Shown here piece by piece: positions 1 through 33,339 of a DNA stretch of 37,191 nucleotides. The stretch's first letter is position 1. Each line of letters begins with the position of its first letter. Under the pieces are notes generated by a model, which had not been told where the DNA came from, made no database searches, and saw only the letters and a list, made by a program, of their open reading frames with translations. Position numbers and translations under genes: made by a program. This stretch comes from Hyphomicrobiales bacterium (lineage in GTDB: Bacteria > Pseudomonadota > Alphaproteobacteria > Rhizobiales > Rhizobiaceae): the NCBI GenBank assembly GCA_900474095.1, contig UCOA01000156.1, positions 1 to 37,191 on the forward strand, read 5' to 3'.

Positions 1-20
1 CGTGGGCACATGTGCCCACG
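1..20. promoter_or_regulatory. Perfect 20-bp palindrome ahead of sugar permease
   Basis: CGTGGGCACATGTGCCCACG is identical to its own reverse complement. It lies 33 bases before the first permease, where the gene for the periplasmic binding protein would normally end. As RNA it could form a hairpin that stabilises or partly terminates a binding-protein message; as DNA it could be an operator. It touches the window edge, so it may be longer. No T-run follows, so it is not a classical terminator. Confidence 0.6.
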
Positions 21-53
21 GTCTTCCCAGGCTGAAGAAACGGATACCCATCC

Positions 54-980
54 ATGACCACATCACACAGATCCGGCGAAAGGCCTGGATTTTTTGCCTT
101 TGCCCGCGAGCATACCTTCGTGACGATTTTCGGCATCCTGATGCCGCTCGCTGTCTTTGCCGTTTTCGTCGGCTATCCGATCCTGTTCACCATCTATCTC
201 AGCCTGTTCGAATGGAACGGCATGACGCCGGAAAAGACCTTCGTCGGACTGGAAAACTACCGGTACATGATCGGCGACAGCCATTTCCACATCGCGCTGC
301 TCAACAATTTCAAATGGCTGGCTGTCACCCTCGCATTTCCCGTCCTCGCCGGCCTGCTGATTGCCTATGCGCTGCGCAACAAGATCCTGCCGGCCCCAGC
401 CCTGGTGCGAACCATCATCTTCTTTCCGGTGACGATGTCGCTGATCTCCGTCGGCCTGATGTTTCTTCTGATCCTCAACCCGCTGTTCGGCGCTTTCGAT
501 ACGGTTCTGCGTTCCGTGGGCCTCGACTTCCTGGTGACGGAATGGTTCGGAAACTACAAGGTCGCGATCTATACGCTGGCGATCGTTTCCGGCTGGGCTT
601 TTACCGGCATGCCAATGATCTTCTATTATGCCGGTCTCGGCGACGTACCGAAGGAGACATTCGATGCCGCCCGCATCGAAGGAGCCGGGCACTGGCGGAT
701 GTTGACCAAGGTGGCCGTCCCGCAACTCAGACCCGTGACTGCCGTCGTTGTCATGCTGACGCTGTTTGAGTCGCTGCGCGCCTTCGATCTGGTCGCCGTC
801 ATGACCAAAGGCGCACCCTTCGGCCATACCAATGTTCTCGGCTACATCGTCTATCTCGAAAGTTTCTGGAACACACGCTTCGGCTACGGCGCGGCAATAT
901 CCGTGGCGATCCTCGTCGTCTCGGCATTGATGGCCCTGGTCATCCTGAAGAAACTGATGAAAGGAGCCTTCGATGTCTGA
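54..980 (+). CDS. Sugar ABC transporter permease, MalF/UgpA type
   Basis: This is an inner-membrane permease of a carbohydrate importer (CUT1 class, binding_protein-dependent transport family). The 308-residue product has about six hydrophobic segments, the first near residues 22-45 and the last near 278-300. The cytoplasmic EAA-like loop that docks on the ATPase is near residues 203-225 (DAARIEGAG). It overlaps the next permease by 8 bases, so the two are translationally coupled, and the ATPase follows. The binding protein is not in the window and is presumably to the left. The ATG at 54 lacks a strong ribosome-binding site, so the exact start is less certain than the family. The sugar cannot be predicted. 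Confidence 0.93.
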   Translation: MTTSHRSGERPGFFAFAREHTFVTIFGILMPLAVFAVFVGYPILFTIYLSLFEWNGMTPEKTFVGLENYRYMIGDSHFHIALLNNFKWLAVTLAFPVLAGLLIAYALRNKILPAPALVRTIIFFPVTMSLISVGLMFLLILNPLFGAFDTVLRSVGLDFLVTEWFGNYKVAIYTLAIVSGWAFTGMPMIFYYAGLGDVPKETFDAARIEGAGHWRMLTKVAVPQLRPVTAVVVMLTLFESLRAFDLVAVMTKGAPFGHTNVLGYIVYLESFWNTRFGYGAAISVAILVVSALMALVILKKLMKGAFDV

Positions 981-1836
981 CACGCTCATTGTGGCACATC
1001 GGCGCGATCTGTTCCGATTTACGGCGCGGTTCCTCGGCTACACCCTGCTTGCCGTCCTGCTTGCCATCTGGTCCGGGCCAATCATTCTGGTGCTGATCAC
1101 CTCGATCAAATCGAACCAGGACTTCCTCGCCGGCCCTTTTTCCATTCCCGCGTACCCGACGTTCCAGCCCTACATCGACGTCTGGAATTCGTTGGGCTTC
1201 AGCGGCCTGCTCGCCAACAGCTTCCTCTATGCGACCGCCGGTTCGGCGCTTGCGGTCCTGCTGGCCTTGGTTCCGGCCTTCGCCCTATCGCGCATGGAGG
1301 TTCCCGGCAAGACGTTCATCTTCGGGCTGATCCTGACCGGTCTCATGCTGCCGCAGCAGACGGTGCTTATTCCGCTCTACGACACGCTGCGCACGCTGCA
1401 CCTGCTCGATACCAAGATCGGGCTGATCATCGTTCACGCCGCCTATGGCATGCCGGCTCAGATTCTCATCCTGCGTGGTTTCATGACCAGCATCCCGCGG
1501 GAAATCGAGAAGGCGGCCTATATCGAAGGGGCGACCGATTTCCAGGTGTTCTACAAGATCATTCTGCCGCTGTCCCTGCCGGGCATCGTCGTGGGCTTCA
1601 CGCTGAATTTCATCGCGATCTGGAAGGAGTTCGTCTTCGGCCTGGTGCTTTTGAATTCCGAGCAGAATTTTCCGGTCACGGTCGGCATGCTAAAGCTGAA
1701 CAGCGATCGCTATATGGCAGTGTTCAACCTGCCGGCCGCCGGCCTCGTCATCTCCCAGCTTCCCATCATCGTCCTGTTCATCCTGACCTATCGCAAGATT
1801 GCCTCGGGCAATTTCGCAGGCGCAGTCAAGGGTTGA
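973..1836 (+). CDS. Sugar ABC transporter permease, MalG/UgpE type
   Basis: Second inner-membrane subunit of the same CUT1 importer, expected to pair with the upstream permease. The 287-residue product starts with a hydrophobic segment at about 20-42. It has a well-kept EAA loop near residues 177-200 (EKAAYIEGATDFQVFYKIIL), the contact site for the ATPase. The start is supported by AAAGGAG six bases upstream, inside the end of the previous gene. The 8-base overlap implies coupled synthesis. The substrate is not evident. Confidence 0.94.
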   Translation: MSDTLIVAHRRDLFRFTARFLGYTLLAVLLAIWSGPIILVLITSIKSNQDFLAGPFSIPAYPTFQPYIDVWNSLGFSGLLANSFLYATAGSALAVLLALVPAFALSRMEVPGKTFIFGLILTGLMLPQQTVLIPLYDTLRTLHLLDTKIGLIIVHAAYGMPAQILILRGFMTSIPREIEKAAYIEGATDFQVFYKIILPLSLPGIVVGFTLNFIAIWKEFVFGLVLLNSEQNFPVTVGMLKLNSDRYMAVFNLPAAGLVISQLPIIVLFILTYRKIASGNFAGAVKG

Positions 1837-1869
1837 GCACAGGTATCTGGCACAAGGAATTGCATTCAC

Positions 1870-2970
1870 ATGGCTGAAGTTTCCCTCACCCACATCGAAA
1901 AAAGATATGGCGCCCACACCGTCATTCCGCGCCTGGACCTGACCATTCGCGATGGCGAATTCACCGTACTCGTCGGCCCCTCTGGTTGCGGCAAGTCAAC
2001 CACGCTGCAGATGATCGCCGGTCTGGAATCCATTTCAGGCGGACGATTGATGATCGGCGGCGTCGATGTCACGCATCTTCCGCCCAAGGACCGCAACATC
2101 TCGATGGTCTTCCAGTCCTATGCGCTGTTTCCCCATATGAATGTCCGCGACAATATCAGCTTCGGGCTGAAGACCCGCCGCGTGCCGACGGCGGAAGCCA
2201 ATCAACTGGTCGCGGACGTATCGAAAAGGCTGAAGATGGAGAACTATCTCGACCGGCTGCCGCGGGAACTTTCCGGCGGACAGCGCCAGCGCGTGGCGCT
2301 TGGCCGTGCGCTGGTGCGCCGGCCCGGCGTTTTCCTGATGGACGAACCCCTGTCCAATCTGGACGCGAAACTGCGGGTCGAAGCCCGAAGCTTTCTCAGC
2401 AAGATGCATCAGGAACTGGGAATCACCACCGTCTACGTCACGCACGATCAGTCGGAAGCCATGACGATGGGGTCACGTATCGTCGTGATGAACGGCGGCA
2501 CGATCCAGCAGGCAGCGCCGCCGATGGAGGTGTACCGCCGCCCGGCCAACCGCTTCGTCGCCGGCTTCATCGGCTCGCCGTCGATGAATTTCATCGATCT
2601 CGATGTCGCTTCACCCGCCGAACTGGTGGACGCGAAGAACGGCATCCGTATTTCCGTTCCACAACGCCGGCAGGCCGAGCTGGCGAAATCCGGCCTTCGC
2701 GCCGTCGTTCTCGGGCTGCGGCCTGAGCACGTCAAGCTGGCAGCCGATGGCGAGGCAAGCCTCGGTGCGACGAGCTTCAAAATCGAGGTCTGCCAGTTTC
2801 TGGGCTCGGAGACGCTCCTCGACATTACGCGCGGCACCTGCCGGGTCATTGCAAGAGTGGGGGCCGAGGAAACCGTGAAACAGCGCGAGGACCGCATTTT
2901 TGTGTTCGATATGGACCACGCCCATTTCTTCGACCCCGATTCGGGAAATAACATTGCCTTGAATAGTTGA
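1870..2970 (+). CDS. Sugar ABC transporter ATPase, UgpC/MalK type
   Basis: ATP-hydrolysing subunit that powers the two permeases. The 366-residue protein has Walker A GPSGCGKST near residue 37, the MalK-like Q-loop segment MVFQSYALFPHM, signature LSGGQRQRVALGRAL, Walker B VFLMDEPLSNLD and the switch histidine in YVTHDQSEA. The C-terminal ~130 residues match the regulatory beta-barrel (TOBE/MalK C-domain) found in sugar ATPases. An AAGGAA ribosome-binding site lies about ten bases before the ATG. It closes a permease-permease-ATPase operon and is followed by a LacI regulator on the same strand. Confidence 0.95.
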   Translation: MAEVSLTHIEKRYGAHTVIPRLDLTIRDGEFTVLVGPSGCGKSTTLQMIAGLESISGGRLMIGGVDVTHLPPKDRNISMVFQSYALFPHMNVRDNISFGLKTRRVPTAEANQLVADVSKRLKMENYLDRLPRELSGGQRQRVALGRALVRRPGVFLMDEPLSNLDAKLRVEARSFLSKMHQELGITTVYVTHDQSEAMTMGSRIVVMNGGTIQQAAPPMEVYRRPANRFVAGFIGSPSMNFIDLDVASPAELVDAKNGIRISVPQRRQAELAKSGLRAVVLGLRPEHVKLAADGEASLGATSFKIEVCQFLGSETLLDITRGTCRVIARVGAEETVKQREDRIFVFDMDHAHFFDPDSGNNIALNS

Positions 2971-3012
2971 CGACGCTTGTCTGGTCGAAGCCGAGCCGAC
3001 ACGATAGACGGG

Positions 3013-3026
3013 GTGTTTAGAAACAC
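3013..3026. promoter_or_regulatory. Inverted repeat, candidate LacI-family operator
   Basis: GTGTTT-AG-AAACAC has perfect 6-bp arms and lies 24 bases before the LacI-family start codon. Its size and symmetry suit a LacI-type dimer, although the usual central CG is AG here. The position suggests autoregulation. It could also be a leader hairpin. Confidence 0.4.
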
Positions 3027-3049
3027 GATTTGACTGAGAAGCAAGGTAA

Positions 3050-4057
3050 ATGGCCACGATCGCCGATGTTGCAAGGATTGCCGGAGTTTCGCAATCCACC
3101 GTATCCCACGTCATCAATGGGACGCGATTTGTTAAGCCGGAAACGGAACAGGCGGTGCGCGACGCCGTTTTACGCACCGGCTATACACCCAACACACTCG
3201 CCCGCGCTCTGGCCCGGTCATCATCGAGCAACAGCGTCGGCATCGCAATTTCCGCGATATCCAATCCCTATTTCGCCGATATTATTCGGGCCGTGGAAAG
3301 CGAATGCGCCGCGTGCGGCATGACCGTTTTCTTGGCCGATACGCATGACACACCCGAAAAGGAGCTGGAGGTCGTTCAGGCGCTGCACCAGTTGCGCGTC
3401 GATGGGATTATCATCGCGCCTTGCTCGACGGACGAACTTGGGGCGCTTCGCTATCTCGAAGATCACGCCATCCCTACTGTGCTCGTCGATCGGTTGGCTT
3501 CCACGAAATTCGATCAGGTTGGCGTACAGAATGCCAAGTCGATGGAGGTTTTGGTCGAGCATCTTGTCAAGCGCGGTCACACGCGGATTGGCCTGATCCC
3601 AGGCCACCCGGGCTTCGCTACAACCTTGGAGCGCATCGATGGTTTCGTGAACGCGGCGCGCCGGGCAAAATTGCAAGCCAGCGAATGCTCTGTCGCGCCG
3701 GGTTCGAACGATGTGGACAGCGCGGCAAAATCCACGATCGACATGATGAGCCGTGCGGTATGTCCAACCGCACTCGTTGCCGGCAACAACATGGCAACGA
3801 TCGGCATCATGCGAGGACTGAAATCGCTTGGCAAACGTGTTCCGGACGATATCGCCCTTGTGGGATTTGACGATTTCGAGTGGGCCGATTGCTTCGAACC
3901 ACGCCTTACAGTCATCGCTCAACCCTGTATCGAACTCGGCCGCAGATCGGCCAAGCTCTTGCTCGACCGGATAAAGGATCCGGGCAAGGCGCCAAAGACA
4001 GTGAGGGTGAAAACAAGTCTTATTGTTCGCAACTCGTGCGGATCGTCAACTCGTTGA
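3050..4057 (+). CDS. LacI-family transcriptional regulator
   Basis: Sugar-responsive DNA-binding protein of 335 residues. The N-terminal ~55 residues are a textbook LacI helix-turn-helix and hinge (TIADVARIAGVSQSTVSHVI, then the AQVNxxA-like TPNTLARALA). The rest is a periplasmic-binding-protein-like sensor domain, with GIAISAISNPYF near residue 64 and the D-x-x-A-x-G-x-x-x-G-like IALVGFDDFEWAD near 270. It lies 79 bases after the ABC ATPase and probably controls that importer. The gene directly downstream is a broken RbsC-type permease, so it may once have belonged to a ribose-type cluster. The effector is unknown. Confidence 0.93.
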   Translation: MATIADVARIAGVSQSTVSHVINGTRFVKPETEQAVRDAVLRTGYTPNTLARALARSSSSNSVGIAISAISNPYFADIIRAVESECAACGMTVFLADTHDTPEKELEVVQALHQLRVDGIIIAPCSTDELGALRYLEDHAIPTVLVDRLASTKFDQVGVQNAKSMEVLVEHLVKRGHTRIGLIPGHPGFATTLERIDGFVNAARRAKLQASECSVAPGSNDVDSAAKSTIDMMSRAVCPTALVAGNNMATIGIMRGLKSLGKRVPDDIALVGFDDFEWADCFEPRLTVIAQPCIELGRRSAKLLLDRIKDPGKAPKTVRVKTSLIVRNSCGSSTR

Positions 4058-4060
4058 CAT

Positions 4061-4283
4061 CACGCTCAGCTCGCGTTTATTGGTGGCGTGAGCCTGGGCG
4101 GTGGCCGGAGTCATTGGCGTCGTGAGCGGCGTGCTTTTGATCGGCGTCATCAACAATCTGCTGACGCTGGCTCAGGTTCCATCCTTCTATGTCCAAGCAT
4201 CGACGGGAGCCGTCATCATCGTCGCTGCGATACTTACAACGGTTGCGAGCACACGGTCGAGCGAAGTCCGGACGCGTACCTAA
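4061..4283 (+). pseudogene. Remnant of RbsC-type sugar permease (C-terminal end)
   Basis: Only the last part of a ribose/xylose-type (CUT2) permease is left. In the reading frame of the LacI gene, just past its stop, the DNA encodes IGGVSLGGGR (about 4079-4108). From about 4101 another frame encodes VAGVIG, GVLLIGVINNLLTLAQV and SFYVQASTGAVIIVAAIL, ending in TAA at 4281-4283. These two pieces are adjacent in intact RbsC-like proteins, so a small frame-disrupting deletion separates them. There is no start or ribosome-binding site. A 60-residue open frame here from GTG 4101 is therefore unlikely to be a gene of its own. Confidence 0.7.
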
Positions 4284-4352
4284 ATTTAAACCAAAGCGTC
4301 AATCCAAGAAACTACTTCGGAGCATTAAGTTTGCAGTGTCGGCATTCTGATG

Positions 4353-4393
4353 AAAATGAGCCGAGGCTGCGATGGTAGCCTCGGCTCATTTTT
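4353..4393. terminator. Strong bidirectional rho-independent terminator
   Basis: Perfect 13-bp arms ATGAGCCGAGGCT (4356-4368) and AGCCTCGGCTCAT (4377-4389) enclose an 8-base loop. An A-run precedes and a T-run follows, so it works in either direction. It ends transcription from the LacI side (plus strand) and from the aminotransferase gene whose stop is at 4398 (minus strand). Confidence 0.93.
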
Positions 4394-4397
4394 GTGA

Positions 4398-5714
4398 TCA
4401 GAGCGATTTCAACACATCGCCCAACGCACCCACCAGCATGTCAGCATTTTCGCGGGAGAAGACCAGCGGTGGCCGGATTTTCAGGATGTTGGCGTGGGGC
4501 CCGGAGGCGCTGATAAGGATACGGCGTTCGCGCAGGCCGTTGACGATGCGCGTCGTCAGCGCGGCATCGGGGTGCTTGGCGACCGAGTCGGCGACGATCT
4601 CGACTCCGATGAATAGGCCGGAGCCGCGCACATCGCCGAAGGCCGGATGGCTGGTGGCCAGGCCCCTGAGGCCGTTCATCAGGTAGCGTCCGACTTCCAG
4701 CGCGTTCTGTTGCAAACCTTCTATGCGGATCGTGTCCAGCACGGCCTTGCCGGCGGCGGCCGCGACCGGATTGCCGCCGAACGTGTTGAAATAGCGCGCC
4801 CGTGGGCCGAATTCGGCGATCACTTCAGGGCGAAGCACGATGCCTGCCATGGGATAGCCGTTGCCCATCGGCTTGCCGATCGTCACCATGTCGGGCGCAA
4901 CGCCGTGGCGCTCGAAACCCCACATGGCCTCGCCGGTGCGGCCGAAACCCGGCTGCACTTCGTCGGCAATGAAGAGGCCGCCCGCCTCGTGGATTGCGTC
5001 CACCGCCGACTTCAAAAAACCCTTCGGGCCCGCGAAAATGCCGTCGCTCGAAAAGATCGTGTCGGTGATCAGCATGGCTGGCTTGATGCCGTGGCGCTTC
5101 AGGTCGGCGATCGCCGCGCGCACGTCGCGGCCGAACTTTTCCATCAGCTCGTCCGGCGAATGACGGTAGCTGTCCGGCGCGGCGACGGTGCGCACATGCG
5201 GACCCAGTGTCACGGATTCGCCGAGCGAGGGCGAGAACTCGGCCACCGCGCTCGTCAGGCCGTGATAGGCGAGATCGGTTGCAATGATGCCGGTGCCGCC
5301 TGTCACATAGCGGGCGATGCGCACGGCGAGGTCGTTCGCCTCGCTGCCGGTGCAGGTGAACATGGCCTGGCTGAGCGCGTCCGGGAAGGTCGCCGTCAGC
5401 GCCTCGGCATAGTCAACGATGCCTTCGTGCAGATACCGCGTGTGGGTGTTCAGCACGGCGGTCTGCTGCGTGATCGCCTCCACCACGCGCGGGTGGCAAT
5501 GGCCCAATGAGGCAACGTTATTGTAGGCGTCGAGATACCGTTCGCCGGCCATATCATAGAGGAAGACACCTTCGCCGCGCACGAGATGCAGCGGCTTTTC
5601 GTAGAAGAGGCGGTAGGCGGGGCCGAGCACCTTTTCGCGTCGCGCAATCAGCGCCCGTTCCGCCTCGTTCAGCCGTTCGAAATCTTCGCGCGAAAAAGCA
5701 TTCACCATCGACAT
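4398..5714 (-). CDS. Class III PLP enzyme, phospho-lyase/aminotransferase type
   Basis: A 438-residue PLP enzyme of aminotransferase class III. Visible features are the phosphate-binding GSEAND (residues 123-128), the cofactor aspartate in ADEVQPGFGRTG (D251) and the Schiff-base lysine K281 in VTIGKPMGNGYP. The GKPMGNG context is typical of the branch containing animal ethanolamine-phosphate and 5-phosphohydroxy-lysine phospho-lyases, which release ammonia and phosphate rather than transaminate. The kinase stop lies 3 bases before its start, so kinase and lyase form one minus-strand unit. I infer that it acts on the kinase product. Ordinary transaminase activity cannot be excluded. A GAGG motif precedes the ATG at 5714. 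Confidence 0.88.
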   Translation of the reverse strand: MSMVNAFSREDFERLNEAERALIARREKVLGPAYRLFYEKPLHLVRGEGVFLYDMAGERYLDAYNNVASLGHCHPRVVEAITQQTAVLNTHTRYLHEGIVDYAEALTATFPDALSQAMFTCTGSEANDLAVRIARYVTGGTGIIATDLAYHGLTSAVAEFSPSLGESVTLGPHVRTVAAPDSYRHSPDELMEKFGRDVRAAIADLKRHGIKPAMLITDTIFSSDGIFAGPKGFLKSAVDAIHEAGGLFIADEVQPGFGRTGEAMWGFERHGVAPDMVTIGKPMGNGYPMAGIVLRPEVIAEFGPRARYFNTFGGNPVAAAAGKAVLDTIRIEGLQQNALEVGRYLMNGLRGLATSHPAFGDVRGSGLFIGVEIVADSVAKHPDAALTTRIVNGLRERRILISASGPHANILKIRPPLVFSRENADMLVGALGDVLKSL

Positions 5715-5717
5715 GAT

Positions 5718-6767
5718 TCAGGCCTCGGAAAGGTTGGGCAGGAGCGTCTTCAGCCCGGCCAGTGTGAGATCGGAAATGTTTTGCAGCCCCCGCCAGGCGG
5801 TGACATGGTTGCGCATGATATAGTCGCGGTTTTCCGGAAAAAGCGCGGACCGCCACTCGGCGATGATGATCGACATCGCCAGCCGTGAGCGCGCGAGAAG
5901 CGGCAGAAGTTCGATTTCGCCAGGCTCGAGCGCGCGGGCAGATAGAAAGCCCTCAAGGAAGGCACGGGTGCGCGCTGGCCAGTTGTCGGTCGCCAGATGG
6001 TAGGAGACAGCGACGGCGAGATCGTTGATCAGCGGTGCATGCACCATGTCGCCGAAGTCGATGATGCCGACGACATCGGTCGGCACCGCCGGATCGAGCA
6101 GGATATTGTGGGGGTTGAAATCGTTGTGGATGATCTGCCAGCGCTGGAGCGCAGCGATGGCGGGCAGCGACCGCTCGAATTCGCCGAGAACGGCCTCGAC
6201 CTGTGCCCGGCGTTCCGGCGCGACATGGTCGATGACGGCGGCAAGGTCGAGCGTATGGGAGATGTCCCACATGAGCTTTCCGGCCGGCGGACGCCCGTTA
6301 TAGTCCTTGAGGCCGAGTCCCAGCTCCGCGAGCGCGCGGCCGACATTGTGGCTCTGCGCTTCGGATGCAGGCGTGCGGTATTGCAGTTCACCGCGCAGGA
6401 AGGTGAGCAGGCGCATAATGCGCGGGCCGTCGGCGGTGGAAAGCGTATGGCTCGGTGCGCCGCCTTTCGTCGACACGAGCCGCGGCACGGGCACCGCGGG
6501 TGCTATAGCCGCCAGATGTAGTAGCGCGCCGTCCTGGAATTCGAGGGCGGCCGGGTCTTCGGCAGCGTTGGCGATCTTGAGGACGAAGTCCGTCCCGTCC
6601 GCACGGGTGAAGAGGAAGGTCTCGTCCCGCTCGCTGGAAAGCCGCTTTGCGGCGCCGTCGAGGCCATAGACGTCCGCGACCGCAGCCTCGGCATCGGCAA
6701 TTGCCGTGGCGCTCCATGTCGCCGACATGGAGTCCGTCTTCTTGGTGGCGGGCAATGGCTCCGTCAT
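5718..6767 (-). CDS. APH-family small-molecule kinase (hydroxylysine kinase-like)
   Basis: Aminoglycoside-phosphotransferase-fold kinase of about 349 residues. It carries the ATP-contact lysine in FVLKIAN (about K64), the catalytic loop HNDFNPHN (base D216, N221) and the metal-binding DFGD (D237). The fold phosphorylates hydroxyl groups of small molecules. Adjacency to the phospho-lyase-type PLP enzyme suggests it phosphorylates a hydroxy-amine or hydroxy-amino acid, as hydroxylysine kinase does. The open frame runs upstream to 6908, but the ATG at 6767 has GGAG seven bases before it and the extra 47 residues look non-coding. Another ATG at 6728 has a weaker site. It is divergent from the GntR gene. 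Confidence 0.87.
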   Translation of the reverse strand: MTEPLPATKKTDSMSATWSATAIADAEAAVADVYGLDGAAKRLSSERDETFLFTRADGTDFVLKIANAAEDPAALEFQDGALLHLAAIAPAVPVPRLVSTKGGAPSHTLSTADGPRIMRLLTFLRGELQYRTPASEAQSHNVGRALAELGLGLKDYNGRPPAGKLMWDISHTLDLAAVIDHVAPERRAQVEAVLGEFERSLPAIAALQRWQIIHNDFNPHNILLDPAVPTDVVGIIDFGDMVHAPLINDLAVAVSYHLATDNWPARTRAFLEGFLSARALEPGEIELLPLLARSRLAMSIIIAEWRSALFPENRDYIMRNHVTAWRGLQNISDLTLAGLKTLLPNLSEA

Positions 6768-6896
6768 GCTTGCTCCGTTGCGCGCGGCTTCCCGCGTTTC
6801 CCCCGATGGCCGCCCTGTTTTGCCGGGTTCCGATCGCCCGTTGAAAGCAGTTTGGCAGCCTTGCACCGGGCAGAAAGTACCGGCCGCTGCAGACTG

Positions 6897-6932
6897 TACT
6901 TGAAACACGTCAAAAAAGATGCATCAAGTATC
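6897..6932. promoter_or_regulatory. Candidate GntR operator in divergent kinase/GntR promoter
   Basis: GATGCATCAAGTATC lies at 6918-6932 and differs at two positions from GATGTATCAAGCATC at 7686-7700. An opposed half-site TACTTGA at 6897-6903 mirrors TCAAGTA at 6924-6930. The site sits 29 bases before the GntR start and 150 bases before the kinase start, so one regulator could control both directions. Assignment to the adjacent GntR protein is inferred. Confidence 0.55.
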
Positions 6933-6960
6933 CTACTAATCGATTTCCCGGATCAATTCC

Positions 6961-7641
6961 ATGCCTGAATTCACGACACTGGAATATGAGAACCTGAACA
7001 GCGCGGTCTACGGTGCGCTGTGCGATGCTCTGATCCAAGGCCGGTTCCAGCCCGGCGACAGGTTGAAGATCCGCGATCTCGCCGAGCAGTTCGGCACGAG
7101 CGTCACGCCGATCCGCGATGCCATTCTCCGGCTTGCCAATGACGAGGCGATCATCTTCCGCTCGCCGCGCGACATTCGCATTCCGGGCCTCAGCGAGAGC
7201 CGCTACCGGGAGATCCGGTCGATCCGCGTTCGCCTGGAGGGGCTTGCCGCGGAAACGGCCGCTCAGGTGGCGACGAGCGCCGATATCGAGGCTTTGGAGC
7301 GCATTTTGCGCGAAAACGAGCAGGCAATCGAGGCGGGCGACCGTCTGAAAGGCACGCAGCTCAACCAGGCTTTCCACTTCATACTGCCGCAGATCGCCGG
7401 GCTTCCGGTGCTGAATGGCATCCTGCGGCGGCTGTGGCTGCAGATGGGGCCGCATATTTCCGACGCCTATATCCAGGGTGGCCGGGCGATGATCGACCAT
7501 CATTATCCGGTCGTGGAGGCGTTGAAACGGCATGATTCCGCGGCCGCCTCCATGGCGATCGTCGATGACATCCTGCTCGGCGGCAAGCCGATTCTGGAAC
7601 GCATCGAGCGGGGCGAGGAGCGGCAGACTCGGCGGGCCTAG
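6961..7641 (+). CDS. GntR-family regulator, FCD (FadR) subfamily
   Basis: A 226-residue transcription regulator. Residues ~10-75 form the winged helix-turn-helix (LIQGRFQPGDRLKIRDLAEQ, then GTSVTPIRDAILRLANDEAI). Residues ~85-210 form an all-helical FCD ligand domain, with the histidines typical of its metal/ligand pocket in FHFIL and DHHYPVVEAL. Proteins of this subfamily usually repress catabolic genes until an acid or amino compound binds. It is divergent from the kinase and 75 bases before the SDR start. A repeated 15-bp motif occurs on both sides of it. The effector is probably the substrate or an intermediate of this locus. Confidence 0.93.
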   Translation: MPEFTTLEYENLNSAVYGALCDALIQGRFQPGDRLKIRDLAEQFGTSVTPIRDAILRLANDEAIIFRSPRDIRIPGLSESRYREIRSIRVRLEGLAAETAAQVATSADIEALERILRENEQAIEAGDRLKGTQLNQAFHFILPQIAGLPVLNGILRRLWLQMGPHISDAYIQGGRAMIDHHYPVVEALKRHDSAAASMAIVDDILLGGKPILERIERGEERQTRRA

Positions 7642-7685
7642 GCCTTTCGCGAGAGGAGGCTTGCATTTCGCGAGCCGCCGATTAC

Positions 7686-7700
7686 GATGTATCAAGCATC
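7686..7700. promoter_or_regulatory. Second copy of the GntR-type operator motif
   Basis: GATGTATCAAGCATC, with GATG/CATC arms, matches the 6918 motif at 13 of 15 positions. It ends 16 bases before the SDR start codon at 7717. A binding protein here would block transcription into the SDR and the transporter genes behind it. The ATG inside the motif (7687) is therefore unlikely to be the SDR start. Confidence 0.5.
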
Positions 7701-7716
7701 AACGGAGAATGCTCGC

Positions 7717-8457
7717 ATGACCGAAGAACGCCGATACATGTTGCTGACCGGCGCGAGCCGCGGCATCGGCCATGCGACGGTCAAGCTCTTCCAGTCGAAG
7801 GGCTGGCGTATCCTCACGGTTTCGCGTCAGGTCTTTTCCGAGGAATGCGCCTGGCCGTCGGCCCGCGAAAGCCATATCCAGGCCGACCTTGCCGAACTCT
7901 CGCAGATCGACCGTCTCGCCGCAACCGTGCGCGAGCGGCTGCCGAACGGCCGGCTGCACGCGCTGGTCAACAATGCCGGCATTTCTCCGAAGGGGCCGGA
8001 AAAGAGCCGCCTCGGCGTGATGGGCACGGACGCGGATGTCTGGACGCAGGTGCTCAATGTCAATGTCGTCTCGACGGCGCTGATCGCCCGCGCGCTCATG
8101 CCGGAGCTCGAAGCGGCGAAGGGTTCGATCGTCAATGTCACCTCGATTGCCGGAACGCGTGTCCATCCCTTTGCCGGTGTCGCCTATGCGGCATCCAAAG
8201 CGGCTCTCGGTTCGCTGACGCGCGAAATGGCGCATGAATTCGGCCGTCGCGGCGTGAGGGCGAATGCCATTGCGCCAGGCGAGATCGAAACATCGATCCT
8301 GTCGCCCGGAACGGATGAATTGGTGGCAGCGGAAGTGCCGATGGGAAGGCTGGGAGACCCGCGCGAAGTCGCGGAAACTATCTATTTCCTGTGCACCGAG
8401 CCGTCATCCTACATCAACGGCGCTGAAATCCACATCAACGGAGGGCAGCACGTCTGA
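7717..8457 (+). CDS. Short-chain dehydrogenase/reductase (SDR)
   Basis: Classical NAD(P)-dependent oxidoreductase of 246 residues. The nucleotide-binding TGASRGIG is near residue 10, the structural NNAG near 85, and the catalytic Ser/Tyr/Lys sit in VTSIAG and YAASK. The ATG at 7717 is preferred because ACGGAG lies nine bases upstream. The ATG at 7687 falls inside the putative operator and would add ten unlikely residues. It lies between the GntR gene and the transporter, so it probably oxidises or reduces the hydroxyl/carbonyl group of the imported compound or of the lyase product. The exact reaction is not readable. Confidence 0.9.
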   Translation: MTEERRYMLLTGASRGIGHATVKLFQSKGWRILTVSRQVFSEECAWPSARESHIQADLAELSQIDRLAATVRERLPNGRLHALVNNAGISPKGPEKSRLGVMGTDADVWTQVLNVNVVSTALIARALMPELEAAKGSIVNVTSIAGTRVHPFAGVAYAASKAALGSLTREMAHEFGRRGVRANAIAPGEIETSILSPGTDELVAAEVPMGRLGDPREVAETIYFLCTEPSSYINGAEIHINGGQHV

Positions 8458-8460
8458 CAA

Positions 8461-8491
8461 CGGTCAAAACGGGAAAAATCTCCGTTGACCG
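8461..8491. repeat. Inverted repeat after SDR gene
   Basis: CGGTCAA (8461-8467) is mirrored by TTGACCG (8485-8491), and neighbouring bases extend the stem imperfectly. It starts four bases after the SDR stop. No T-run follows, so it may be a weak attenuator or a 3' stabiliser between the SDR and the transporter message. Confidence 0.4.
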
Positions 8492-8502
8492 GCACTGACT
8501 GG

Positions 8503-8663
8503 AATGCATCAATCGGCCGACACGCCCCGGGGAAAGGGCGCGACGACCGGAGAGGCTGCAACCGATGCCGACCGCTGAATGGCGGGGCTGAGGCCAGCAG
8601 TCCGCATGAGACCGTCATCGGAGCCGGCGCCAAACCGGTTCGTTCACAAACGAAGAAAAGGGG
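8503..8663 (+). promoter_or_regulatory. Structured leader before binding-protein gene
   Basis: The ~160-base leader holds several potential RNA stems. CGCCC/GGGCG lies at about 8523-8539. CCGATG (8562-8567) can pair with CATCGG (8616-8621) and enclose two hairpins: CCGC/GCGG at 8572-8585 and GCTG/CAGC at 8587-8598. TTCGTT/AACGAA (8639-8654) stands just before the GGGGAG ribosome-binding site. ATGCATCAA at 8504-8512 repeats nine bases of the GntR-type motif. I could not match it to a known riboswitch class. Pairings were found by eye, not by folding. Confidence 0.4.
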
Positions 8664-8669
8664 AGTGCA

Positions 8670-9722
8670 ATGAAGACAATCATGAAATCCGGAATCCTGG
8701 CGGCTGCCGCCGTCGTACTGTCCGTTAGCCTTGTCGCGCCGGTTTTCGCCCGCGACCTGACCGTCGTCTCCTGGGGCGGCAACTATCAGGACGCGCAGCG
8801 CAACATTTACTTCAAGCCGTTCTCTGAAAAGACCGGCAAGCCGGTGCTCGACGAGTCCTGGGACGGTGGCATCGGCGTCATCCAGTCGAAGGTGAAGGCC
8901 GGCGCGCCGAACTGGGATGCCGTGCAGGTCGAGGCCGAAGAACTGGCGCTCGGCTGTGCCGACGGTCTCTATGAAAAGATCGACTGGGACAAGATGGGCG
9001 GTAAGGACAAGTTCCTCGATTCCGCCGTCAATGATTGCGGCGTCGGCGCGATCGTCTGGTCCACGGCAATCGCCTATGACGGCGACAAGCTGAAGGAAGG
9101 CCCGGCCTCCTGGGCCGATTTCTGGAACGTCGAAAAGTTCCCCGGCAAGCGCTCGCTGCGCAAAGGCCCGAAATACACGCTCGAATTCGCGCTGCTTGCC
9201 GATGGCGTGTCGAAGGACGAGCTCTATGACGTGCTTTCGACCGAAGAGGGCGTCGCGCGCGCCTTCAAGAAGCTCGACGAGCTGAAGCCGAACATCGTCT
9301 GGTGGGAATCGGGTGCCCAGCCGCTGCAGTTCCTCGCCTCCGGGGAAGTGGCGATGGCGTCCGCCTATAACGGCCGCATCACCGGCATCAACCGGTCGGA
9401 AGGCAAGAACTTCAAGGTCGTCTTCCCGGGCAGCATCTATGCGGTCGACAGCTGGGTCGTGCTGAAGGACGCCGAGAACAAGGATGCCGCGCAGGACTTC
9501 ATCGCCTTCGCAAGCCTGCCCGAGAACCAGGCGAAGCTTCCCGAATTCGTGGCCTACGGCCTGCCGAACAAGGAAGCTGCTGCGCAGGTTCCGGCGGAAT
9601 TCGCCAAGGACCTGCCGACCGATGCGGCGAACATGACGGACTCGATTTCGCTGAATGTCGATTTCTGGATCGACAATGCGGAAACGCTGACGCAGCGCTT
9701 CAACGCCTGGCTGGCCCAGTAA
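8670..9722 (+). CDS. Polyamine-type ABC transporter substrate-binding protein (PotD/PotF-like)
   Basis: Periplasmic binding protein of 350 residues in extracellular solute-binding family 1. A signal peptide of about 27 residues ends at VFA-RD. The mature protein begins with LTVVSWGGNYQDAQR, typical of PotD/PotF-like proteins. A GGGGAG ribosome-binding site precedes the ATG. The ATPase and two permeases follow, completing an importer. Relatives bind spermidine, putrescine, GABA, opines and other small amino compounds. With the kinase/lyase pair nearby, an amino alcohol or hydroxylated amino acid is plausible but unproven. The leader is long and structured, and a hairpin follows the gene. Confidence 0.92.
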   Translation: MKTIMKSGILAAAAVVLSVSLVAPVFARDLTVVSWGGNYQDAQRNIYFKPFSEKTGKPVLDESWDGGIGVIQSKVKAGAPNWDAVQVEAEELALGCADGLYEKIDWDKMGGKDKFLDSAVNDCGVGAIVWSTAIAYDGDKLKEGPASWADFWNVEKFPGKRSLRKGPKYTLEFALLADGVSKDELYDVLSTEEGVARAFKKLDELKPNIVWWESGAQPLQFLASGEVAMASAYNGRITGINRSEGKNFKVVFPGSIYAVDSWVVLKDAENKDAAQDFIAFASLPENQAKLPEFVAYGLPNKEAAAQVPAEFAKDLPTDAANMTDSISLNVDFWIDNAETLTQRFNAWLAQ

Positions 9723-9736
9723 GAACATCCTCGGTG

Positions 9737-9764
9737 AAGGGCGCCCCCGAAAGGGCACCCTTCC
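9737..9764. repeat. Intercistronic hairpin between binding protein and ATPase
   Basis: GAAGGGCGCCC (9737-9747) pairs with GGGCACCCTTC (9754-9764) around CCGAAA with one mismatch in 11 pairs. No T-run follows. Such hairpins commonly shield the 3' end of a binding-protein message and lower expression of the ATPase and permeases. That role is inferred from position. Confidence 0.6.
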
Positions 9765-9834
9765 TATCTGGCCGGGTGCGTTCTCGCGGGTTTTCCGGAT
9801 CGCGCGTCCTCCGCCTCAAGCGATGGAGTCTTGC

Positions 9835-10902
9835 GTGCCCGAATTCATTCGATTTGACCGTATCACCAAATTCTACGGCCCGCTCTGCGTGGTCGAAAAC
9901 CTCGACCTCGGCATCGTGAAGGGCGAATTCGTCAGCCTGCTCGGACCCTCGGGTTCCGGCAAGACGACGCTTCTGATGATGCTCGCCGGCTTCGAGCAGC
10001 CGACCTCCGGCAACATCCTGCTGGAGGGAACGGCCATCAACGCCGTGCCGACCCACAAGCGGGATATGGGCGTCGTCTTCCAGAGTTATGCCCTCTTCCC
10101 GCACATGTCGGTCGGCGAAAACGTCGCCTTTCCGCTCCAGATGCGAGGCGTGGGGAAGGCGGAGATTGAAAAGCGCGTGGCGCGCGCGCTCGACATGGTA
10201 CAGCTTTCAGCGCTTGCCGAGCGCCGGCCGTCTCAACTTTCCGGCGGCCAGCAGCAGCGCGTGGCGCTGTCCCGCGCTCTGGTCTTCGAGCCGCGTGTGG
10301 TGCTGATGGACGAACCGCTCGGCGCGCTCGACAAGCAGTTGCGCGAGCAGATGCAGCTCGACATCCGCGACCTGCACCGCCGTCTCGGCCTCACCATCGT
10401 CTTTGTCACGCATGACCAGTCCGAGGCCCTGACCATGTCGGACCGCGTCGCCGTCTTCAACAAGGGCAAGATCGAACAGATCGGGACGCCGCGGCAGGTC
10501 TATGACGAACCGGCGACGCGCTTCGTTGCGGAGTTCATCGGCGAGACCAATCTGGTCGAGGGCGTCGTCGAGGCGGTAGAGGGCGCGGAAGCCAATGTGC
10601 GGTTGACCTCCGGTGCTCAAATCGTTTCGGCCGTTTCCGGCACGGTGGCGCCGGGGCAGACGGTCTATCTTTCCATCCGACCCGAGCGGGTCGATCTCAC
10701 GGAGATCCGCGGCGATGCCCGCAATTGCCTGGAAACGGAGGTGACGGACTCTGTCTACCAGGGCGATCACCTGCGTGTGCAATTGCAGAACGCCGCCTAT
10801 CCGCTGATCGCCAAGCTCGGTCGACGGTCGCGCGAGTTTCCGCCGGGCACCAAGGTCTATGCGGCCTTTTCGGCGGGTGACTGCCGGGTCATCGCGCCAT
10901 GA
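9835..10902 (+). CDS. Polyamine-type ABC transporter ATPase (PotA/PotG-like)
   Basis: Energy-coupling subunit of about 355 residues. It has Walker A GPSGSGKTT, Q-loop VVFQSYALFPHM, signature LSGGQQQRVALSRAL, Walker B VVLMDEPLGALD and switch histidine FVTHDQSEA. A C-terminal TOBE domain covers the last ~90 residues. The frame is open from ATG 9823, but GTG 9835 has GGAG six bases upstream while 9823 has no such site, so GTG is preferred. Its stop overlaps the next permease start by 4 bases (ATGA). Confidence 0.93.
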   Translation: MPEFIRFDRITKFYGPLCVVENLDLGIVKGEFVSLLGPSGSGKTTLLMMLAGFEQPTSGNILLEGTAINAVPTHKRDMGVVFQSYALFPHMSVGENVAFPLQMRGVGKAEIEKRVARALDMVQLSALAERRPSQLSGGQQQRVALSRALVFEPRVVLMDEPLGALDKQLREQMQLDIRDLHRRLGLTIVFVTHDQSEALTMSDRVAVFNKGKIEQIGTPRQVYDEPATRFVAEFIGETNLVEGVVEAVEGAEANVRLTSGAQIVSAVSGTVAPGQTVYLSIRPERVDLTEIRGDARNCLETEVTDSVYQGDHLRVQLQNAAYPLIAKLGRRSREFPPGTKVYAAFSAGDCRVIAP

Positions 10903-12077
10903 TTGCAGGTCCCTCCCGAACCGTTCGGTCGCTGATTCTGCTGGCGCCGCTGCTCGTCTTCCTCATCGGCTTCTTCATCTGGCCGCTGTTCAGCATGATG
11001 TCGCAGTCGGTGTCGGATACGGCCGTGCTGCGCCTGCTGCCGCGCAGCGCGGTGGTGCTGCCGGTCTGGGACCGCAAGTCGCCGCCGACCGTGTCCATGC
11101 AGACCGCGCTGATGGAAGACCTGAAGGCTGTCGATGACGATCAGGCGCTGGGCGACATGGTGCGCCGCCTCAACAGTGCCCGCTCCGGCTTCCGCACGCT
11201 GATATCGAAAACGACGAGCGCACTCGGTAACACGGCGAACCCGCCCGCCGACCTCGTTTCCATCGACAAGCGCTGGGAGAAACCGGAATTCTGGCTGGCG
11301 ATCGCCGATGCGCTCTCGCCGCTGACCGACCGCAACCTGCTCGCCGCCGTTGATCTCGGCCGCAATGCCGCTGGCGATATCGAGCACCTGCCGGCCGACC
11401 AGTCCGTAAACCGCGTCATCCTCGTACGCACCTTTTGGATCGCCGCGCTCGTTACCTTCTTCTGTGCCTGTATTGGCTTTCCCTATGCGATGATTGCCGC
11501 CTCGCTCGACGGCTGGAAACGCGACCTGATGCTGGCCGCTGTGCTTCTGCCGCTCTGGACCTCGCTTCTGGTGCGCACTGCCGCCTGGTTCATCCTTCTG
11601 CAGGAACAGGGTCTCATCAACGATCTCCTGCGTTGGATTGGCGTTATCGACGCGCCGTTGCCGCTGATCTTCAACCGCACCGGCGTCATCATCGCAATGA
11701 CCCATGTGCTGCTGCCCTTCATGGTGCTGCCGATCTATTCCGTGCTCATCACCATACCGAAGAACCTGATGCCGGCGGCGGCATCCCTCGGCGCCCATCC
11801 GCTGCGCGCCTTCCTGCGCGTGCTCCTGCCGCTCAGTCTGCGCGGCGTCGCCTCCGGCAGCCTGCTCGTCTTCATCTCAGCCATCGGCTACTACATCACG
11901 CCGGCGCTGATCGGCGGTCCGGGCGACCAGATGATCTCCTCGATCATCGCCTTCTACGCTACGGGCTCGGCAAACTGGGGCATGGCCGGCGCTCTTGGCG
12001 TCGTGCTGCTCGTCGCAACATTGCTTCTCTACAGCGTCTATGCGCGGCTCTCTGCCGAAGAACCGGGGAGGCGCTAG
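10899..12077 (+). CDS. Polyamine-type ABC permease (PotB/PotH-like) with large insertion
   Basis: Inner-membrane permease of 392 residues, longer than the usual 280-310 of this family. TM1 spans about residues 11-33. The next clear segment begins near residue 178, so roughly 140 mostly hydrophilic residues are inserted where the family usually has a short periplasmic loop. Four or five further segments follow, with an EAA-type loop near 288-312 (AAASLGAHPLRAFLRVLLPL). The 4-base overlap with the ATPase indicates coupled translation. The loop may contact the binding protein; this is inference. Confidence 0.92.
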   Translation: MIAGPSRTVRSLILLAPLLVFLIGFFIWPLFSMMSQSVSDTAVLRLLPRSAVVLPVWDRKSPPTVSMQTALMEDLKAVDDDQALGDMVRRLNSARSGFRTLISKTTSALGNTANPPADLVSIDKRWEKPEFWLAIADALSPLTDRNLLAAVDLGRNAAGDIEHLPADQSVNRVILVRTFWIAALVTFFCACIGFPYAMIAASLDGWKRDLMLAAVLLPLWTSLLVRTAAWFILLQEQGLINDLLRWIGVIDAPLPLIFNRTGVIIAMTHVLLPFMVLPIYSVLITIPKNLMPAAASLGAHPLRAFLRVLLPLSLRGVASGSLLVFISAIGYYITPALIGGPGDQMISSIIAFYATGSANWGMAGALGVVLLVATLLLYSVYARLSAEEPGRR

Positions 12078-12080
12078 GCC

Positions 12081-12863
12081 ATGCCAATGAAGATCACCAA
12101 GTTCGCCTTCGCGTCGCTCACGATCCTTTTCCTCGTCGCCCCCCTCATCGCGATCCTGCCGCTCGCCTTCACCTCGAGCGTCATTCTCACCTATCCGATC
12201 CCCTCTTGGTCGCTGCGCTGGTTCGAAGAGCTGTTCTTCGCTGATGCCTGGCGTCGGGCGATCGTCAACAGCCTGATCATCGGCACGGGCACGACGCTGC
12301 TCGCAACCGTGCTCGGCACCGCCGCGGCGCTGGGGCTTCGCAACCGCCTTATCTTCTTCCGCGGCACGATACGCACGCTCTTCCTGCTGCCGATGGTGGT
12401 TCCGGCTGTGGTGCTCGGCGTCGGCATGCAGGTACTGCTGGCAGGCTTCGGCCTGACGAACAGCTATGCCGGCGTGATCATTGCCCACACGGTGGTTGCC
12501 GTGCCCTTCGTGGTTGTGAGCGTCACCGGGGCGCTTGCCGGGATCGACGAGCGCGTGGAACTCGCCGCGCAAAGCCTCGGCGCGTCCCCCACGACGGTCT
12601 TTCGTCGCGTGACCTTGCCGCTCGCCATGCCGGGCGTGGCGTCCGGTGCGGTGCTCGCCTTCGCGACCTCGCTCGACGAGGTCGTGCTGACGCTCTTCGT
12701 CGCCGGCCCCAACCAGCGCACGCTGGCGCGGCAGATGTTCTCCAGCATCCGAGAGAACATCAGCCCGGCGATTGCCGCCGCCGCCTTCCTCTTCATCGCC
12801 GCGACGATCATCATCGCCCTCGTTGTCGTGTTGTCCCGGTCCATGCTGGCGAAACGGCGCTAG
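12081..12863 (+). CDS. Polyamine-type ABC permease (PotC/PotI-like)
   Basis: Second permease of the importer, 260 residues and six hydrophobic segments, of normal family length. The ATPase-docking EAA loop is ELAAQSLGASPTTVFRRVTL near residues 157-177. It starts three bases after the PotB-like stop and ends the binding protein-ATPase-permease-permease operon. A short hairpin follows its stop. Distance from the SDR suggests the whole SDR-transporter block may be co-transcribed, with the leader before the binding protein as an internal control point. Confidence 0.93.
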   Translation: MPMKITKFAFASLTILFLVAPLIAILPLAFTSSVILTYPIPSWSLRWFEELFFADAWRRAIVNSLIIGTGTTLLATVLGTAAALGLRNRLIFFRGTIRTLFLLPMVVPAVVLGVGMQVLLAGFGLTNSYAGVIIAHTVVAVPFVVVSVTGALAGIDERVELAAQSLGASPTTVFRRVTLPLAMPGVASGAVLAFATSLDEVVLTLFVAGPNQRTLARQMFSSIRENISPAIAAAAFLFIAATIIIALVVVLSRSMLAKRR

Positions 12864-13707: not shown

Positions 13708-13790
13708 CAGGCCTCGCGTTTGGCACTTTGAGCTTGCAAGCTCGAGATTAAGATTTGGACCCGCTCCGCAGATCACCATACCGGCCGGCG

Positions 13791-13919
13791 CCATTGCGCC
13801 GTGGCGAGGTGATGAAATTCTTCGCTGGCCTTCACCCCTGCCTCATCGGCATCGAGGCGTGTGCGACGGCTCATCATTGGGGCCGTGAATTGAGCAAGCT
13901 CGGCCACACGGTTCGCCTG
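13791..13919 (+). pseudogene. IS110-family transposase N-terminal fragment
   Basis: The plus strand encodes about 43 residues, LRRGEVMKFF then PCLIGIEACATAHHWGREL and LGHTVRL. This is the segment around the second acidic position of the DEDD domain in IS110-type transposases. The frame then changes to unrelated sequence, and neither the start nor the rest of the gene is present. It abuts the ISL3 remnant, which points in the opposite direction. Confidence 0.75.
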
Positions 13920-14021
13920 GTCGACGAGCCACAGAATGAGGGGTTAATGCTAATATACTGCGCCGATTGGCCAGCAAGTGTACTTTCGCGCCGGTGTCCC
14001 GAGCGCGACTGTTTACACGAC

Positions 14022-14349
14022 CTATTCGAGCTTCAGGTCTCCAATCAGTTGAGCGGGAAGATCGGCTGCGATTGCGTATGTGTGGGCTGTGGCCAAAGGC
14101 CATCTCACCCTCAACCCATATGTGGTATTCCATGTCGATCCGCATCCCGTCGCGGTCAAGCACAGCCCAGGAGAAATCCAGGCCGCCGCCTTTTCGCAGG
14201 GACCAACCTGCAGCCGCCAACGCGTCGATTGCTGCCCGCCAGATTTCTTCTGATATATCGGAAAGACAAACCTGATCCAAGATTTCCATTGCTTTCAACT
14301 TTTTGGCGAGCCGGCGTTTCCATGGTGTTTTGGTGGCCCGTCTTAGCAT
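14022..14349 (-). pseudogene. Unrecognised gene with apparent frameshift
   Basis: From ATG 14349 the minus strand encodes a plausible protein with EEIWRAAIDALAAAGW, GGGLDFSWAVLDRD and MEYHIWVEGEMAFG. It then degenerates into arginine/serine-rich text. A second frame beginning near 14097 continues sensibly as AHTYAIAADLPAQLIGDLKLE and stops at TAG 14022-14024. This suggests a broken gene of about 108 codons. I do not recognise the family. It stands between IS fragments and the beta-lactamase. Confidence 0.4.
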
Positions 14350-14414
14350 CCTTCTCAACCCCAATGTTCATCTTAACGGTAGATCGATAAGGGCATCGCG
14401 TAGGTGCTCGGGGT

Positions 14415-18981: not shown

Positions 18982-18984
18982 GAC

Positions 18985-19011
18985 GGTTCCTTTCCGGGCA
19001 ACCCCGCCCGG
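18985..19011 (-). promoter_or_regulatory. Alternative hairpins masking the btuF ribosome-binding site
   Basis: On the minus strand CCGGGC can pair with GCCCGG (plus 19006-19011 with 18994-18999). Alternatively GGTTgCC (plus 18997-19003) can pair with GGAACC (plus 18985-18990), which covers the AAAGGAA ribosome-binding site. The two stems share bases and exclude each other. This is what an expression platform that controls translation should look like. No T-run is present, so termination is unlikely. Confidence 0.5.
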
Positions 19012-19029
19012 GTGAGTGGATCTTGCTTT

Positions 19030-19245: not shown

Positions 19246-19333
19246 GCGGTGATTTAGTCCGAGCTTGGCCGCCGCGTCAAGGCGATCGGTGCCACTGTCA
19301 ACAGCGATGGATCAAACGTGAGGCATCGGCGCG

Positions 19334-31279: not shown

Positions 31280-31291
31280 GCTCTATCCGGT

Positions 31292-31675: not shown

Positions 31676-31685
31676 AGTCGTCTCC

Positions 31686-33293: not shown

Positions 33294-33339
33294 TCGTCCC
33301 CCGATCGACCAAACATTCTGCAGTCCTCCTCCCCTGGTG

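Follow-up and report, generated by a model that had tools for sequence, protein, structure and literature searches.

A kinase, phospholyase and importer gene set under probable GntR control in a Rhizobiaceae genome, with a hydroxylated GABA-like amino acid as candidate substrate

A stretch of 37,191 nucleotides from a Hyphomicrobiales bacterium of the Rhizobiaceae (assembly GCA_900474095.1, contig UCOA01000156.1; hereafter the window) carries, between positions 4,398 and 12,863, a small-molecule kinase and a pyridoxal 5'-phosphate (PLP) enzyme beside a GntR-type regulator, a short-chain dehydrogenase/reductase (SDR) and a complete ATP-binding cassette (ABC) importer. Which compound do these genes handle, and do they act together? 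A first-pass annotation of the sequence had proposed that a hydroxylated amine or amino acid is taken up, phosphorylated and then split with loss of ammonia and phosphate. By computation, with the 6.4 Mb draft genome of which the window is part used for own-genome searches, we found a defined gene set, the clade of the lyase, shared operator-like sites and a binding protein of the type that binds 4-aminobutanoate (GABA). With moderate confidence we propose, as a joint claim, that the genes form one GntR-controlled catabolic unit and that its substrate is a hydroxylated, GABA-like omega-amino acid. The parts are ordinary; the unit is defined, conserved and probably co-regulated, and its substrate class is narrowed rather than fixed.

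The eight genes lie where the first-pass annotation had placed them, and every class was confirmed by Pfam matches above the gathering score:

4398-5714, minus strand: class III PLP enzyme assigned to the ammoniophospholyase clade, 438 aa, catalytic Lys281 (solved relatives and diagnostic residues)
5718-6767, minus strand: APH-family small-molecule kinase, 349 aa (PF01636 at 116.9 bits, gathering score 23.2; motifs)
6961-7641, plus strand: GntR/FCD transcriptional regulator (PF07729 and PF00392 above gathering scores)
7717-8457, plus strand: SDR, 246 aa (PF13561 at 179.8 bits; alternative upstream start 7687)
8670-9722, plus strand: periplasmic solute-binding protein, relative of GABA-binding proteins (solved relatives and pocket residues)
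9823-10902, plus strand: ABC importer ATPase (TIGR01187, potA subfamily, 392.8 bits, cut-off 355.6)
10899-12077, plus strand: ABC importer permease 1, PotB/PotH-like (PF00528 above gathering score; PotH model 163.2 bits, below its cut-off of 489)
12081-12863, plus strand: ABC importer permease 2, PotC/PotI-like (PF00528 above gathering score; PotC model 146.7 bits, below its cut-off of 326)

Kinase and lyase genes are spaced by 3 bases on the minus strand, and the GKPMGNG motif of the lyase was found with lysine 281. The pair is divergent from the plus-strand GntR, SDR and four importer genes, among which ATPase and permease 1 overlap by 4 bases and the two permeases are separated by 3 bases. 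For the kinase, 6767 is the most likely start rather than 6908, given the length of 349 aa annotated in S. meliloti, and for the SDR 7717 rather than 7687, given 246 aa as in Shinella.

Is the PLP enzyme a phospholyase or an ordinary transaminase with an unrelated kinase next to it? Its fold and family are those of the class III aminotransferases. Among solved structures, its best matches were 5g4i, named phospholyase (396 bits, 2.3e-117), and 6tor, named ethanolamine-phosphate phospho-lyase (367 bits, 1.8e-108), as against 186 bits (1.1e-53) for the top transaminase structure. In a tree of 105 rows, obtained by a quick search with no bootstrap, the window enzyme grouped with 5g4i and 6tor, apart from four class III enzymes of its own genome (SH-aLRT 99); 5g4i and the outgroup were flagged as long branches, and the join of 6tor with a further lyase (L113) is one of long branches meeting. 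The nearest lyases, among rows with an organism name, belong to Rhizobiaceae. In twelve alignment columns, both solved lyases have a residue that the transaminases lack, and seven of these (R26, N65, N66, R132, P282, F302 and K412) are invariant in all 101 lyase-class rows and differ or lack a counterpart in all five outgroup rows. This comparison is partly circular because the 101 rows had been preselected at 38% identity or more, and the outgroup consists, in four of its five rows, of unassayed, presumed transaminases from the same genome. Four of the five outgroup rows carry Arg at the position of K412, which we take to be the 2-oxoacid-binding position of transaminases.

The kinase also bears on this question. 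In a survey of the best 80 of at least 593 confirmed candidate loci, whose counts describe close relatives, a kinase lies within 3 kb of the lyase in 66. By its sequence, the PLP enzyme is a phospholyase of the type that eliminates ammonia and phosphate, as the first-pass annotation had supposed; structure matches, tree placement and diagnostic residues all speak against the transaminase, which we consider very unlikely. PbfA, the (R)-1-hydroxy-2-aminoethylphosphonate ammonia-lyase that PMC8154272 describes as likewise a class III enzyme turned lyase, was tried as a further identity and rejected (189.5 bits, NCBIfam cut-off 525).

The two solved lyases share clade, PLP lysine motif and diagnostic residues with the window enzyme, which is 43% identical to 6tor (presumably human ETNPPL) and 45% identical to 5g4i (presumably A1RDF1 of Arthrobacter); the importer and the gene partners differ. 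PHYKPL is a further class III ammoniophospholyase, here likened by name and not by sequence. The kinase carries HNDFNPHN and DFGD, in agreement with the HxDxxxxN and DFG motifs that define APH-family kinases, and is on this ground an APH-family small-molecule kinase; its closest solved relative, a homoserine kinase, is a weak match (6e-07). It shares PF01636 and the catalytic motifs with known kinases of the family, hydroxylysine kinase being likened to it by family only. The best model for both window proteins is PRK06148 (NCBIfam NF004799), a fused kinase and lyase, although the window genes are separate and reach 515 of the required 1128 bits. Judged by these sequence comparisons, the unit would work like the animal hydroxylysine and phosphoethanolamine routes.

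The binding protein narrows the choice of substrate. The importer had been described as PotFGHI-like, and in architecture this holds, since the set of four components and the ATPase subfamily are those of PotFGHI and PotABCD. The part that did not hold concerns the ligand: the binding protein scores 54.8 bits against a cut-off of 582 for PotD and 39.1 against 636 for PotF, and the permeases are likewise far below their equivalog cut-offs. Its best solved relatives are 4eq7/4euo (1.1e-51), which we take to be the GABA protein Atu4243, together with 4i1d and the GABA sensors 9d57 and 6dgv. Polyamine import as the default was set aside because of these scores and the GABA binders among the solved relatives. 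In the Pf622 protein, the GABA site comprises W9, T13, F100, residue 102, W202, R205, D228 and Y264 (PMC12999171). Window residues W35, R236, D260 and Y296 match this site, R236 and D260 being the counterparts of R205 and D228, so the Trp, Arg, Asp and Tyr of the Atu4243 and Pf622 proteins are all present. The Arg and Asp that hold the two ends of GABA are thus retained; the lining is altered, T13, F100, F102 and W202 of Pf622 being replaced by Y39, I128, W130 and Y233. As the end-holding residues are kept and the lining is changed, we read the ligand as GABA-like with an extra polar group. The same nine-position set occurs in all 16 proteins of at least 68% identity that were first compared, window included, and in three further loci (L122, L123 and L128). 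The protein of L125, whose cluster holds an annotated gabT and a succinate-semialdehyde dehydrogenase (SSADH) gene, has Tyr/Phe at positions 102/104, as does Atu4243, whereas the window type has Trp/Thr. Related importers adjoin SSADH or gabT genes. In sequence, the protein is nearest to GABA-binding and not to polyamine-binding proteins.

Two neighbourhoods point to a product. In R. leguminosarum Vaf-46 (L013), with the importer 77-82%, the lyase 76% and the kinase 54% identical to those of the window, an aldehyde dehydrogenase gene begins 23 bases beyond the lyase. Among NCBIfam models, this dehydrogenase matches SSADH of the Sad/GabD1 type best, though below their cut-offs, and all seven solved structures related to it at 1e-120 carry the name succinate-semialdehyde dehydrogenase, in one case as putative. 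The Rahnella cluster encloses a gabT that passes its cut-off and seems to have a regulator of its own. Taken together, the SSADH-type gene and the gabT suggest succinate semialdehyde as the product and 4-amino-3-hydroxybutanoate (GABOB) as the substrate, which is our single best guess for one compound and a tentative one. The class of hydroxylated omega-amino acids is favoured over hydroxylysine or ethanolamine, the precedents that the first-pass annotation had drawn from animals.

In the proposed mechanism, the importer would bring in a GABA-like omega-amino acid with a hydroxyl next to the amine, the kinase would phosphorylate that hydroxyl at the expense of ATP, and the lyase would eliminate both phosphate and ammonia, so that the carbon which had borne the amine becomes an aldehyde. 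With GABOB, this would yield succinate semialdehyde, to be oxidised to succinate by a dehydrogenase encoded elsewhere. The gene set, the lyase class and the importer support this logic of uptake, phosphorylation and elimination. GntR may bind TGATGCATCA-like sites ahead of each transcription unit and be released when the substrate or an intermediate is present. A literature search, covering titles and abstract openings of the best-ranked matches, returned no recognised description of such a bacterial pathway.

For the SDR, the closest solved relative is 4x54 (9.2e-96). The cluster-linked SDRs group together in a set of 19 rows at 100/99, which includes stand-alone copies on rhizobial plasmids (L092-L094); a Pseudomonas/Rahnella group joins at 98/95, with the root unsure and one outgroup row placed elsewhere. 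The lyases that partner these SDRs lie far apart in their own tree, for example those of Paracoccus and Haematobacter, which makes the SDR a steady partner of diverse lyases. Our tentative reading is that it most likely acts on the hydroxyl of the imported compound, by oxidation or epimer exchange. It may alternatively reduce the aldehyde or have a link to vitamin B6, as suggested for the family by relatives of 62-64% identity that adjoin pdxH (TIGR00558 above cut-off) in L151, L152 and L153, three of the five stretches examined. Other stand-alone SDRs adjoin unrelated genes.

Are the eight genes controlled together? Operator-like sites were found before the kinase/lyase, SDR and importer units, all variants of the palindrome TGATGCATCA:

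6917-6932, unstranded: operator 1, AGATGCATCAAGTATC, between the divergent kinase and GntR genes, with GATGCATCAAGTATC at 6918-6932
7686-7700, unstranded: operator-like site 2, GATGTATCAAGCATC, directly before the SDR start, with the second exact GATGYATCAAGYATC
8504-8512, unstranded: operator-like half site, ATGCATCAA, upstream of the binding-protein gene

At the position of operator 1, GATGCATCAA is conserved in all 11 aligned divergent-gap rows, window included. The 6.4 Mb genome has just two exact copies of GATGYATCAAGYATC, namely the two cluster sites from which the pattern was itself drawn; allowing two mismatches gave 21 places, and a reversed control pattern gave 5. The half-site sequence ATGCATCAA is present twice in the window, at the half site and in operator 1 (0.46 expected; 7 of 100 shuffles reach 2). 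Across 2.21 Mb of loci, we counted 23 exact copies of TGATGCATCA. All but one lie within 320 bases before a matched GntR, kinase, SDR or binding-protein start, two of these 22 overlapping the gene start by 1 and 14 bases, and the remaining copy is 612 bases before a Paracoccus lyase. Of the 19 loci with a GntR of 42-59% identity to that of the window (18 tabulated loci plus L049, just outside the distance cut), 16 have an exact copy in one promoter gap or more; L029, L031 and L049 lack it, as do all 10 tabulated loci whose GntR is 31-37% identical. The 16 loci are not all independent, since eight are from Pseudomonas. Rahnella has three copies, before binding protein, SDR and GntR.

A 14-base form of the site, searched in ten whole genomes, found the cluster in nine (coordinates matched by hand) and had it as the single best place in seven; it tied with one other place in the genome of L022 and with five in that of L012. 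When its consensus was tested by shuffling each locus, p was 0.05 or less in 12 of the 18 loci outside the window's own clade that have a GntR of 42-59% identity. Palindrome variants before the units, and the exact form in 16 of 19 related clusters, make the set look like one regulon, and the eight genes are probably co-regulated, as the first-pass annotation had assumed, on the strength of these shared sites. Three other genomes showed extra operator places, one preceding an operon for an importer of another type (typed by eye) and two preceding nothing recognised. A Microvirga genome (G070) has TGATGCATCA at position 7233 of L141, in the gap ahead of genes for an importer, Dpp-type by eye, whose operon continues into a thiamine pyrophosphate (TPP)-enzyme gene, about 12 kb from the kinase/lyase pair of the same genome.

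The gene set recurs beyond this genome. All eight genes occur together in five of the 80 loci (L009, L010, L011, L015 and L083), in four plasmid loci (L089, L090, L091 and L101, the last from S. meliloti 1021) and in three genomes of the same genus (L114-L116, L116 probably being the genome of L083 again), and a set that recurs in this way is not a chance assembly. Among 26 same-genus genomes, four have a lyase orthologue, each in a complete cluster, and five have the SDR, namely these four at 97% or more and one at 62%. Lyases across loci were taken from tblastn, since gene clustering had split them into singletons, and some of the 80 loci end at contig ends, so that neighbour counts are lower bounds. 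With these limits, a GntR of at least 40% identity was near the lyase in 19 of 80 loci, a binding protein of at least 45% in 18, and an SDR of at least 55% within 6 kb in 14, all of which have the GntR. The importer is kept in all five loci whose lyase is at least 88% identical and in two of the three at 74-78%.

A strict tie between pair and importer is not borne out: the kinase stands by the lyase far more often (66 of 80) than this binding protein does (18 of 80), and the pair also occurs beside other importers or none. As the pair is often without this importer, kinase and lyase appear as a module with changing partners, common to several pathways; this does not undo the importer link here. 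The genome itself holds five lyases of the class, the other four (on C148, C8, C206 and C224) being 45-57% identical to the window enzyme, and the remaining matches 28-35%. The C224 lyase lies in a frame of 1040 residues that also matches the kinase and looks like a PRK06148-type fusion; it is the nearest to 6tor of the own-genome lyases (52%, against 43% for the window enzyme). On C206 (positions 1-12000, L112), a divergent kinase, a lyase and an importer of this type, with a binding protein 57% identical, are near genes weakly matching HpaG and the glyoxalase family, and the same importer type adjoins hpaH and hpaI in R. leguminosarum. For that cluster, a route from octopamine or phenylethanolamine to a phenylacetaldehyde is possible. 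The C148 pair (L110) stands beside a HAD hydrolase, a DAO-type oxidoreductase and a class V aminotransferase, and resembles an Aminobacter locus (L105). The lyase class as a whole seems to serve parallel pathways that each take a different hydroxylated amine.

Put at its widest, the proposal is that of an undescribed bacterial route in which beta-hydroxylated GABA-like acids, GABOB first, would be phosphorylated and then, by PLP-dependent elimination, converted to succinate semialdehyde, a path around GABA transaminase. The route would belong to a family of kinase/phospholyase pathways that run in parallel (this genome has five lyases), each tuned to another hydroxylated amine, and one operator code would run from rhizobia to Pseudomonas and Rahnella. 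In this full extent, we regard the proposal as possible and rather doubtful.

Several observations weigh against the proposed unit and its substrate. For the ligand, 4eq7/4euo are deposited as polyamine-binding; mannopine-binding MotA has the same Arg and Asp; Trp/Thr at 102/104 also occurs in L124, beside SSADH and with neither kinase nor lyase; and L014, L017 and L112 have the kinase/lyase pair with other pockets. The dehydrogenase of L013 may not reflect the window pathway, since that locus has no SDR and its kinase is only 54% identical. Clusters with the window-type pocket in Microvirga (a HisD-like enzyme and a PRK06105 aminotransferase) and Aureimonas (annotated hisD and an aminotransferase) suggest a ligand with more to remove than GABOB. 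Phaeobacter has lhgO and an alpha-ketoglutarate-semialdehyde-type dehydrogenase with neither kinase nor lyase, and pdxH beside the SDR relatives is not explained by GABOB. As for common control, the shuffle and mismatch tests are weak: the 15-mer at three mismatches has two matches in the window, equalled by 28 of 100 shuffles; the decamer at one mismatch has two hits there against 1.7 expected, one of them outside the cluster at 2402; and the locus shuffles of the 14-base consensus gave p of 0.03-0.38 in the window's own clade. Two Microvirga loci, L022 with the same decamer and L031 without it, combine an importer of another type with a TPP enzyme and amidohydrolases.

Other substrates would fit the same enzymes. 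Hydroxylysine, or 5-amino-4-hydroxyvalerate derived from it, could be converted to aminoadipate or glutarate semialdehyde; a hydroxylysine kinase and phospholyase are known from animals (a title cited in PMC8154272), and, according to PMC11113362, 5-aminovalerate was bound as well by three binding proteins of P. aeruginosa that had been examined for GABA. The Sad/GabD1 type of the L013 dehydrogenase speaks against this, as do the NCBIfam and Pfam scans of the cluster genes, in which no lysine-pathway gene was recognised, and we consider such a substrate unlikely. No more probable, in our judgement, is the import of a larger or two-amine compound, such as 2-hydroxyputrescine, that aminotransferase, SDR or HisD-like steps would trim to the kinase substrate. 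It would account for the PRK06105-type aminotransferase that recurs with the related importer or SDR (L027, L095, L100 and L123) and for the HisD-like enzyme of L027, L122 and L128, but the same scans found neither gene in the window cluster and neither adjoins the annotated S. meliloti or Shinella copies; in Shinella, the importer is followed by a "PLP-dependent aminotransferase family protein".

Amino alcohols are a still weaker candidate: ethanolamine or 1-amino-2-propanol would be phosphorylated and split to acetaldehyde or propionaldehyde, in line with 6tor, one of the two closest solved lyases, being an ethanolamine-phosphate phospho-lyase. In the ethanolamine-type cluster L078, however, an ethanolamine permease (TIGR00908, 633 bits, cut-off 382) adjoins the kinase/lyase pair, where the window has an ABC importer. 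The kinases of L078 and of L073, L079, L087 and L088, which have a permease of the same sequence cluster, are 24-27% identical to that of the window, partly over short stretches; it is C224 and not the window lyase that is nearest to 6tor, and the binding protein retains a carboxylate-type Arg. A beta-amino acid, isoserine or one like it, released from N-carbamoyl or N-acyl precursors and converted to malonate semialdehyde, has slightly less in its favour again. A hydrolase of one sequence cluster accompanies the pair in L012, L022, L029 and L031, the L031 copy being an amidase of the hydantoinase/carbamoylase family, but the scans found no such hydrolase in the window cluster, and in L022, at least, it goes with an importer of another type. 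The hydroxylated GABA-like acid is the substrate class that we retain.

If the proposed reading is right, widespread plasmid and chromosomal genes of plant-associated bacteria would encode catabolic phospholyases and not transaminases. Members of the class are often annotated as "aspartate aminotransferase family protein" or "aminotransferase class III-fold", one record naming an ethanolamine-phosphate phospho-lyase. A new GABA-related nutrient or signal of the rhizosphere would be implied, and the operator offers a direct route to find further members of the regulon.

Outside the cluster, an open frame behind the importer (13755-14390) reads in part like a transposase fragment by eye, with no Pfam match. 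A cobalamin riboswitch (19017-19259, minus strand; 112.8 bits, gathering score 31.5) lies at the 5' end of a Peripla_BP_2 gene (17923-19110), followed by permease- and ATPase-like frames, probably a B12 importer. Further on, positions 27625-34503 hold what appears by eye to be a leucine/isovalerate catabolic cluster, with acyl-CoA dehydrogenase, carboxylase subunits, enoyl-CoA hydratase and HMG-CoA lyase.

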